From Rhodococcus sp. SMB37 (GTDB lineage Bacteria > Actinomycetota > Actinomycetes > Mycobacteriales > Mycobacteriaceae): a DNA stretch of 64,000 nucleotides. Under the pieces are notes generated by a model. It was not told the DNA's origin. It made no database searches and saw nothing but the letters and a program-made list of their open reading frames with translations. The translations under genes were made by a program, and so were the position numbers. How positions within the stretch are numbered: position 1 is the first letter of the stretch; the number at the start of each line of letters is the position of its first letter. The DNA lies in NCBI RefSeq assembly GCF_004345605.1, contig NZ_SLVY01000021.1, positions 1 through 64,000 on the forward strand, in the 5' to 3' direction. This document shows positions 60,202 to 62,746 of this stretch, one piece after another.

Positions 60202-61803
60202 GTGAGCGTCACCAGAAGATCATTCATGCGGGGACTCGGCATGACCGGCGGTGTCGGGCTGGCATACGGCGCGATGTCGACTCTCGGCCTCGCTCCGTCG
60301 GTGGCCGGCACCCCCAACCGGTTCCAGGCCCCCGCGATGGGCGACCTCATCGGAACGGCACCGGGAAACCACTCGGTGGTCATCCTCGGCGGTGGTCCCG
60401 CAGGTCTGTGCGCGGCCTACGAACTGGGTAAGGGCGGATACGACGTCACTGTCCTCGAGGCTCGCACCCGCCCGGGTGGACGCGTCTATTCGGTGCGCGG
60501 CGGCACCCGGGAGACCGAGATCGGTGGCGAAGAGCAGATCTGCACATTCGCAGACGGCCACTACTACAACCTCGGCGCCACCCGCATCCCGCAGAGCCAC
60601 ATCACGCTCGACTACTGCCACGAACTCGGCGTGGAAATCCAACCGTTCGGCAATCAGAACGCGAACACGCTGGTCAATTACCAGAGCAACACTCCGGTCT
60701 CCGGGCAGTCGGTCCAGTACCGCGCCGCGAAGGCCGACGTCTACGGCTACATGTCGGAACTGCTGCACAAAGCGACGTCGCGCGGCGCACTGGACGACGT
60801 GCTGTCCCCCGACGACAAGGACGCGCTCTCGGAGTTCCTCAGCGACTTCGGCGATCTGTCCGGCGACGGTCGTTACATCGGCTCGTCACGCCGTGGGTTC
60901 TCCGACGAGCCCGGTGCGGGTCTCGACTTCGGCACCCAGACCGAACCGTTCGCGATGACCGACGTGATCCGCTCAGGCCTCGGACGCAACTTCAGCTTCG
61001 AGTTCGGCTACGACCAGGCCACGATCATGATGACGCCGGTCGGCGGCATGGACCGCATCTACCACGCGTTCCAGGACAGGATCGGCACCGACAAGATCCA
61101 CTTCGGTGCAGAGGTGATCTCGATGAAGAACGTCGCTGACGGTGTCACAGTGACCTACACGCAGGACGGCTCACGGAAGTCGATCACCGCCGACTACTGC
61201 ATCTGCACGGTCCCGCCGAACCTGATCGGGCGCCTCGACAACAACCTGCCCGCCGATGTCCTGAACGCATTGACCGCGGCGGTCCCGTCGCCGGGCGGCA
61301 AACTCGGCATCGAGTACACCCGCCGTTGGTGGGAGACCGAAGACCGCATCTACGGCGGCGCGTCGAGCACCGACAAGGACATCACCCAGATCATGTTCCC
61401 GTACGACCACTACGGTTCGGACCGCGGTGTCGTCGTTGGCTACTACACCAGCGGAAGAAGCCACCTCGCCTTCGAATCCCTCACCCCCAAGCAGCGTTTG
61501 GACAAAGCCGTCGCCGAGGGAATGACAATCCACGGTGAGAAGTACGGCCGCGACATCGCGTCCTCGTTCTCCGGCAGCTGGCGTCGCATGAAGTACTCCG
61601 AGGGTGCCTGGGTGAGCTGGAAGGGCTCCACTTACGGGCACGATCCTGTCGCCACTCCCGAATACGAGCTGTTGCTGAAGCCTGTCGACCGCATCTACTT
61701 CGCCGGAGACCACCTCTCGAACGCGATCGCATGGCAGCACGGCGCATTCACTTCCGCCCGCGACGTCGTCACCGCGCTGCACCAGCGTGTCGCGGCGGCC
61801 TGA
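60202..61803 (+). CDS. Secreted L-amino-acid oxidase (flavin amine oxidase family)
   Basis: 533 residues. The N terminus is a twin-arginine signal ([14 protein letters not shown]). The FAD Rossmann motif [29 protein letters not shown] spans about 59-87, with RPGGRVYS after it and [12 protein letters not shown] near residue 500. NVGATRIP-like ([20 protein letters not shown]), [20 protein letters not shown] and [19 protein letters not shown] match Rhodococcus opacus L-amino-acid oxidase closely, from memory. It oxidises L-amino acids to imino acids and H2O2 outside the membrane. A GTG start has GGGAG 7 bases upstream. It heads an operon with the RidA-like and TatA genes. Confidence 0.92.
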
Positions 61804-61829
61804 CCACCAACTACTTCTCAGGAGAAGCC

Positions 61830-62507
61830 ATGAAACGCACCACTGTCCGCACTGCAGCTCTGGCCGTAGGCCTCGCCACCACCGCAGTCGTGCTGACCGC
61901 CTGCTCCTCGGACACCGATGACGACGCCGCAGCGCCCAGCGCCCCGACCCCCGTCGCGGAAGCGGTGATCACACCCGGGGAGACGAATCCGATGATTGCG
62001 CAGGGCGTCACGATCAGTGCAGGCGCAACCGTCTACAAGACCAGCGGGCTCGGTCCGACGGTATCGAACACTTCTGCGCCACAGGGCAGTCCGGAGTCGT
62101 ACGTCGCCTCGCAGTTCGCGGGCGGCGAGCTGCCGGAGGGCGTGACGGTCACCGAGGCCCAGGGAATCAACGTGCTCGAGAACATCCGTGCGAATCTGGA
62201 GACGCAGGGTCTGACCCTCGCCGACGTCACGACCATGCGGGTTTTCCTCGACAACCCGCCGGGTTCCGACGTCGCCGATTTCGGGGGATGGAACCGTGCC
62301 TACCGCCAGTTCTTCGCGAACACGAACCTCGAGACCGGCGAGACCGAACTCGTTCCGCTGGGGACCACCGAACCTGCAGCGCCGCTCGAGCGGAACGCAG
62401 CCCGTCCGACCCGCTTCGCGCTCGAGGTCGGCAGCCTCCCTGTTCCGGGCTGGCTCGTCGAGGTCGAGGTCGACGCGGTGTATCCCACGGATGAGGCGGT
62501 CGGCTGA
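61830..62507 (+). CDS. RidA-like (YjgF) enamine/imine deaminase, exported lipoprotein
   Basis: 225 residues. A lipoprotein signal ends at VVLTAC with Cys25, which is unusual for a RidA protein, normally cytosolic. The RidA body is seen as SAGATVYKTSGLGP, INVLENIRANLETQGLTLADVTTMRVFL, GGWNRAYRQFF and PTRFALEVGSLPVPGWLVEVEVDAV, where the Arg of PTRFALEV corresponds to the catalytic Arg. RidA hydrolyses reactive imino acids to keto acids and ammonia. AGGAG precedes the ATG. It follows the oxidase by 26 bases and overlaps tatA. Confidence 0.88.
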   Translation: MKRTTVRTAALAVGLATTAVVLTACSSDTDDDAAAPSAPTPVAEAVITPGETNPMIAQGVTISAGATVYKTSGLGPTVSNTSAPQGSPESYVASQFAGGELPEGVTVTEAQGINVLENIRANLETQGLTLADVTTMRVFLDNPPGSDVADFGGWNRAYRQFFANTNLETGETELVPLGTTEPAAPLERNAARPTRFALEVGSLPVPGWLVEVEVDAVYPTDEAVG

Positions 62508-62746
62508 TGGGCGCGATGAGCCCGGCGCACTGGGCGATCGTCGCGGTGGTCCTGCTGGTTCTGTTCGGGTCCAAGAAACTGCCCGAAGCCGCCCGCGGGC
62601 TGGGCAGGTCGCTGCGGATCCTGAAGTCGGAAGTCGGCGAGATGCACGCGGACCGGCCCGCCGCGCTCGGTGCTCGAGATCAGGACCCGACACACGAGCC
62701 GGTGAACCATATGCGGGCCGCGAACACAACAGAGCACAATCCGTAG
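62507..62746 (+). CDS. tatA: TatA component of the twin-arginine translocase
   Basis: 79 residues. A single membrane segment (WAIVAVVLLVLFG) is followed by the hinge FGSKKLPEAARGLGRSLRILKSEVGEMH, an amphipathic helix that matches TatA, including the Phe-Gly pair. A short polar tail follows. No tatC is nearby. The ATG overlaps the RidA-like stop codon (TGATG). It is likely to support export of the Tat-dependent oxidase encoded by the same operon, or to be the main TatA if no other exists. Confidence 0.9.
   Translation: MGAMSPAHWAIVAVVLLVLFGSKKLPEAARGLGRSLRILKSEVGEMHADRPAALGARDQDPTHEPVNHMRAANTTEHNP

Follow-up and report, generated by a model that had tools for sequence, protein, structure and literature searches.

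Gene content of the locus

The window, that is, the whole stretch of 64,000 nucleotides that was analysed, carries on its forward strand three closely spaced genes for an L-amino-acid oxidase (LAAO), a predicted Rid-like lipoprotein and a TatA paralogue (Table 1). The first two genes are separated by 26 bases (61804-61829), and the stop codon of the second shares one base with the start codon of the third within the sequence TGATG at 62505-62509. The open reading frames and their coordinates confirm the three-gene layout that a preliminary description of this DNA had claimed, and the divergent genes for an IclR-type regulator and an amino-acid permease named there are present as well. The arrangement is beyond chance, as the gene order and tight spacing are seen again in other species. 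A species-genome scan yielded 149 Rid relatives, and the best 80 of these 149 make up the set of loci used for comparison.

Table 1. Features of the LAAO-Rid-TatA locus and of the divergent genes beside it.
Feature	Positions	Strand	Basis
L-amino-acid oxidase (LAAO) gene, Rhodococcus opacus type	60202-61803	+	GTG start, 533 aa; PF01593, 150 bits; 2jae match
LAAO N-terminal export region, residues 1-46, motif TRRSFMR	60202-60339	+	Precedes the 2jae-matching part
Rid3-like lipoprotein gene, 225 aa (predicted)	61830-62507	+	PF01042; nearest solved relatives PSPTO3006 and PFL1385 (sequence and fold)
Lipobox Cys25 codon, Rid-like gene	61902-61904	+	Lipobox rule, 41/41 loci of the Rhodococcus group, Nocardia and Pseudonocardia
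Arg195 codon, Rid-like gene, corresponding to catalytic Arg105 of RidA	62412-62414	+	Alignment; invariant in 35/35
TatA paralogue gene, 79 aa	62507-62746	+	PF02416, NCBIfam PRK00575; monophyletic group of 22
Leu39 codon, TatA paralogue, at the F39 place of the FK motif	62621-62623	+	L39 in 22/22 locus-linked copies
Inverted repeat, divergent promoter region, probable operator	60073-60108	.	Arms 60073-60082 and 60099-60108
Divergent APC-type amino-acid permease gene	58456-59973	-	PF00324, 52.7 bits; PF13520, 39.4 bits
IclR-type regulator gene, overlapping the permease stop	57731-58459	-	PF01614 and PF09339

The oxidase and its Rid-like neighbour

Residues 47-531 of the oxidase align to residues 2-486 of the R. 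opacus LAAO 2jae (E 2.6e-259), which is a full-length match to a solved enzyme, and the N-terminus carries TRRSFMR. The twin-arginine LAAO of the preliminary description was in this way borne out, the oxidase activity being predicted. A twin-arginine motif of the same type was found in 78 of the 78 loci with an LAAO match, namely the 80 loci minus two (L027 and L044) whose sequence has no LAAO. At locus L038 another RR stands upstream of TRRSFMR, and at L049 the oxidase reading frame is interrupted.

In 77 of the best 80 of the 149 loci, the LAAO and Rid genes share a strand and LAAO comes directly upstream. The three exceptions are L027 and L044, whose sequence starts just 5' of the Rid gene, and L089, with LAAO on the opposite strand. 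Among 121 genomes of the window's family (LAAO matches of E up to 1e-60, Rid matches of E up to 1e-20), 14 have LAAO, the same 14 have Rid, and the coordinates are adjacent in all 14; the genomes are related, and these are not 14 separate events. In the genus, strong Rid matches occur in 4 of 18 genomes, LAAO having been searched only in members of this set that fall in the 121-genome sample. Weak Rid-like matches were seen at L008 and L009. Of the three-gene order, the LAAO-Rid pair is conserved, whereas tatA is present in 21 of the 80 loci only. LAAO without an adjoining Rid also exists: on a Pseudonocardia alaniniphila plasmid (L043:59-1582) another LAAO homologue (62% identity) is located beyond the IclR and permease genes, with no Rid match beside it. 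A Rid match on contig 11 of the window's own genome, near a second tatC, was considered as a second lao module and rejected, as it is a different Rid of 159 aa with other neighbour genes.

The Rid-like protein matches PF01042 with 44.2-44.8 bits (cut-off 27.3), and its Cys25 directly follows VVLTA, in agreement with the lipobox rule, which is a pattern and not a trained predictor. The lipobox-bearing RidA-like protein was thus found as described earlier, and imine deamination is its predicted role. PF01042 matches in the own genome number seven (contigs 3, 8, 11, 17, 18 and 21), with the window protein among the weakest. The nearest solved relatives, by sequence and by fold, are PSPTO3006 and PFL1385 (PDB 9bka and 9bkc). 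The AlphaFold2 model, with a mean pLDDT of 85.4 and low confidence confined to residues 1-40 and the final block, matches the fold of 9bka (PSPTO3006) with E 3.4e-12 and a TM value of 0.87 by target length. In an alignment of 35 relatives, all 35 keep Arg195, Glu211 and Glu213. Arg195 aligns with the catalytic Arg of RidA chains, and the Arg pattern is present in 80 of 80 loci and in 120 of 120 proteins among the matches listed. Ile56 is also invariant and aligned with Ile15 of PSPTO3006, and its equivalence to the Tyr17 column, where Rid3 proteins have Ile for Tyr17, was judged by eye. The protein resembles archetypal RidA chains only weakly (E 0.0002 to 0.75, except for two Rid3 chains and 3vcz), and the alignment shows additional sequence ahead of the Arg-bearing strand; both points would suit a protein that is not an imine deaminase and has another role. 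Such a role is very improbable, as the Arg and Glu residues are kept, the Rid fold matches that of PSPTO3006, and an imine producer adjoins.

Spontaneous hydrolysis of imino acids also occurs, and this counts against a need for imine clearance. The Rid3 proteins PSPTO3006 and PFL1385 have been tested as Rid deaminases with LAAO-made imines, and 2-aminoacrylate was deaminated by all six Rid proteins tested (PMC5619798). They share the catalytic Arg with the window protein (PMC5619798) but are shorter, the latter adding an N-terminal lipoprotein signal and sequence before the Arg. Rid1-Rid3 are reported to retain the catalytic Arg, genes for RidA, and sometimes Rid3, cluster with FAD amine oxidase genes, and LAAO-made imines are hydrolysed by Salmonella enterica RidA and Rid2 but not by Rid7 (PMC4433059). 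In Pseudomonas aeruginosa DadA-DadY, an FAD enzyme and a Rid likewise come from one locus and the Rid removes the released imine; DadY differs in being a Rid2 protein that acts in D-alanine breakdown, and the available text of that report does not describe its export (PMC9714295). The catalytic Arg kept in all loci, the nearness to Rid3, these assays and the shared operon logic argue for imine clearance by the window protein. Its specificity is not assured, since neither of two RidA proteins was active on Arg, His and Phe imines; a dadY mutant grew normally on its own, the effect of DadY being seen in competition only (PMC9714295).

The lipobox rule describes the Rid proteins of 41 of 41 loci from five genera, as labelled in the record titles: Rhodococcus (29), Prescottella (1), Rhodococcoides (2), Nocardia (5) and Pseudonocardia (4). 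In the remaining 39 loci it applies to two, both Kribbella, with the Cys within a hydrophobic stretch, and in the other 37 the Rid signal was judged by eye to be Sec-like. A plasmid collection contains 21 records that match Rid, of which five were examined. On plasmids of Comamonas, Paracoccus, Ketogulonicigenium and Sulfitobacter (L138, L139, L140 and L141; Pseudomonadota), genes for a flavin oxidase, a cytochrome c and RidA are consecutive. A Sec-like signal is found in three of these four Rid proteins and an RR motif in three of the four oxidases, the annotated start in Paracoccus being further in and read as annotated. For the Comamonas Rid, the annotated start misses an in-frame lipobox upstream. 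The fifth plasmid, from Komagataeibacter, has no oxidase annotated beside Rid, the annotated neighbours being limited to insertion genes and a cytochrome c gene of short length. The accessible part of an Asaia secretome paper, consulted for evidence of Rid export, held nothing usable. Given the Sec-like signals in other lineages and on plasmid Rid proteins, export signals on this Rid are, as judged from the sequences, more widely spread than the lipid anchor.

The export signals of the oxidase (RR) and of Rid (lipobox or Sec-like), along with the adjacency in most loci and the identical presence across the 121 genomes, support the reading of the two as a deamination pair. Instead, the chief task of the Rid lipoprotein might be structural, as a subunit that anchors the oxidase to the membrane, with any deaminase activity secondary. 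A periplasmic complex of Chlamydomonas, composed of a catalytic LAAO and a non-catalytic RidA-type subunit (cited in PMC5053998), is a precedent for this, and the oxidase is soluble, without an anchor of its own, beside a Rid that carries the lipobox throughout five genera. Anchoring is not the shared feature, since 37 of the 39 other loci have no Rid lipobox, and the catalytic Arg is kept everywhere examined; a mainly anchoring role is thus considered unlikely.

A pair of this kind, as opposed to its anchored form, has known counterparts. The lao-cccA-ridA cluster of Gluconacetobacter diazotrophicus PAL5 is like the window in having a twin-arginine LAAO near a Rid gene; 19 further genomes have lao and ridA together, and an insertion into lao lowered the transcripts of lao, cccA and ridA alike (PMC5053998). 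There a cytochrome c gene lies between the two, where the window has the short gap only and no cytochrome c gene. The context of that cluster is indole-acetic acid, and the available text describes neither a lipoprotein Rid nor a tatA (PMC5053998). The periplasmic LAO1 and LAO2/RIDA of Chlamydomonas reinhardtii also combine an extracytoplasmic LAAO with a RidA-type partner and yield ammonium from amino acids; this pair is eukaryotic, and the part of the report that is available does not describe a lipid anchor or a Tat gene (PMC10805672).

The TatA paralogue and the Tat genes of the genome

The third gene belongs to the TatA family, as had been claimed (PF02416, 57.2 bits, cut-off 21; NCBIfam PRK00575 TatA, 91.4 bits, cut-off 72), but F39 of the FK motif is absent. 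A profile search of open reading frames of at least 40 residues gave a strong TatA match after Rid in 21 of the best 80 of the 149 loci (20 Rhodococcus and 1 Prescottella), one Kribbella match with E 0.91 being disregarded. By this search no locus tatA was found in 59 of the 80 loci, including 11 of the 32 labelled Rhodococcus, Prescottella or Rhodococcoides. Therefore, LAAO export cannot need the locus tatA in general. The same one-base overlap between Rid and TatA occurs in 20 of the 21 loci. In the exception, L027:30-872 (Rhodococcus jostii NBRC 16295), Rid and TatA form one open frame of 280 codons owing to a length difference in a C run next to the usual Rid stop, which may reflect either a true gene fusion or faulty sequencing. 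In the 121-genome survey TatA stands at no fewer than 11 of the 14 loci (at least 11, among the matches listed); the only TatA match of G038 lies elsewhere, and G065 and G127 have one further match each, which may be a weak TatA at the locus.

The 22 locus-linked TatAs, the window's included, are monophyletic against 31 other TatAs, each the best match of its genome (support 0.777, 48 residues). Two positions separate them from the 26 general TatAs, defined as those of the 31 that begin with MGA or MGS: position 7 (A/G/S/T versus W) and position 39, which is L in 22 of 22 locus-linked copies and F in 26 of 26 general ones. Neither position alone is diagnostic of a locus-linked TatA, since 120 homologues among the matches listed, considered without gene context, divide into 59 with L39 and 61 with F39 (median lengths 66 and 87), and the coupling of the two positions is broken in six of the 120 rows, two rows being unreadable at position 7 by pattern. 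Comparison of the window TatA with its 21 relatives gave dN values of 0.01-0.125 and dS values of 0.21-1.41, which indicate that the gene is under strong purifying selection.

A search for tatC in the own genome found none at the locus (contig 21) and two TatC matches elsewhere, on contigs 12 and 11, the former adjoining the housekeeping tatA. The preliminary description of the module as self-contained is thus not supported, because TatC, and in most loci TatA, must come from elsewhere. A single TatC was found in 10 of 11 surveyed genomes with TatA listed at the locus, which implies that any TatA function must use the general TatC. A link of the locus TatA with the second TatC on contig 11 was rejected on the same count. 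The contig 11 region (L135:5214-7604) comprises a dioxygenase gene (PF00775), then the second tatA, the second tatC and an ORF of 140 aa, which is TatB-like by eye and has no Pfam match. As judged by eye, the dioxygenase product has an RR motif and a lipobox at its start, and it would be another Tat cargo adjoining Tat genes in the same genome. In Bacillus subtilis, phoD beside tatAd-tatCd also places a Tat component gene next to a cargo gene, but the Tat genes there encode both TatA and TatC, a pair reported to be cargo-specific (PMC3827258), whereas the window has TatA alone, without tatC.

In Escherichia coli TatA, the F39A exchange abolishes CueO export, and F39-K40 is described as a highly conserved motif (PMC10092561, PMC13186574). 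The other TatA of the own genome encoded on contig 11 has Leu at position 39 too (by eye). Since leucine is a milder replacement than alanine, and this second copy has it as well, loss of TatA function does not follow. Missing from most loci and without F39, the paralogue may still not be an ordinary working TatA. It could lack any special link to LAAO, being either an extra general copy co-transcribed by chance or a partly degenerate one. This would suit its absence from 59 of the 80 loci, the retention of an RR-bearing LAAO in genomes without it, and the leucine at a residue whose change to Ala blocks E. coli transport (PMC10092561, PMC13186574). The constant one-base junction, the low dN/dS and the residues at positions 7 and 39, distinct from the general copy, point instead to a kept, distinct role. 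On balance, the absence of a special link is a serious possibility, somewhat short of an even chance. A more specific proposal is that L39 and the small residue in place of W7 tune this TatA to LAAO or to an LAAO-Rid assembly, so that it would serve a single cargo and share the housekeeping TatC, a reading that is tentative and rather unlikely. TatA itself binds some cargo, which enhances transport (PMC4361764), and by analogy cargo binding could be one way in which an extra TatA helps.

Regulation and the proposed function

Permease and IclR matches are kept beside the operon in 40 of the 80 loci: 31 of 32 of the Rhodococcus group, 5 Nocardia, 3 of 4 Pseudonocardia and 1 Microlunatus. The 40 regions between permease and LAAO, those of the window and 39 loci, were scored for an inverted repeat like CGAGTGAGAA-N-TTCTCACTCG, which is present in 33 of the 40 at 17 or more of 20 matches, 7 regions falling below 17; the consensus derives from 15 of the sequences that were then scored, which biases the score upward. 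The control used 50 single-base shuffles of each region, whose highest scores lay at 13-16 matches. Among the 34 regions scoring at least 16, the arm starts are 23-26 bases apart in 16 regions and 32-34 in 18, the two classes differing by about one helical turn. The exact pattern of the window's repeat has no other match in the 6.2 Mb genome. The repeat is probably a local operator, and the IclR protein perhaps acts at it.

The product under selection could also be extracellular H2O2, used in competition, with Rid only limiting self-damage. One H2O2 arises per LAAO turnover (PMC5053998), but the permease and IclR genes conserved beside the operon favour nutrition, as does the algal precedent of nitrogen gain (PMC10805672); a function in competition is therefore rather improbable.

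The locus is likely to be an extracytoplasmic amino-acid deamination operon with imine clearance and an auxiliary TatA. According to this proposal, the Tat pathway would export the folded, FAD-loaded LAAO, which would produce imino acids and H2O2 from L-amino acids. Tethered to the membrane's outer face, the Rid3-like lipoprotein would turn the released imino acids into keto acids and ammonium, so that a reactive product is removed and ammonium is released faster. The diverged TatA of Rhodococcus and Prescottella would probably raise the export capacity for the induced oxidase, together with the housekeeping TatC, and the divergent IclR, probably at the 60073-60108 repeat, would co-regulate the permease and the operon. 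The operon would serve nitrogen gain from amino acids. The parts that concern TatA and regulation draw on the purifying selection and on the inverted repeat in most of the regions scored.

The preliminary description presented the module as apparently undescribed. The pairing of an oxidase with RidA is already published (PMC5053998, PMC10805672, PMC4433059), whereas the lipid-anchored form of Rid in Rhodococcus, Nocardia and Pseudonocardia and the lineage-specific TatA appear to be new. A literature search for the combination, partial in its coverage and hence weak as to absence, found no lao operon with a tatA or with a Rid described as a lipoprotein.

The literature treats Rid proteins mostly as a form of damage control within the cell. 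That a Rid with an export signal, a lipobox in some lineages and Sec-like in others, has been conserved next to a twin-arginine oxidase suggests selection for imine clearance beyond the cytoplasm as well. Moreover, the TatA of Rhodococcus and Prescottella varies naturally at a residue on which E. coli TatA depends and is encoded beside one probable cargo, and the locus makes the cargo specificity of TatA paralogues directly testable.
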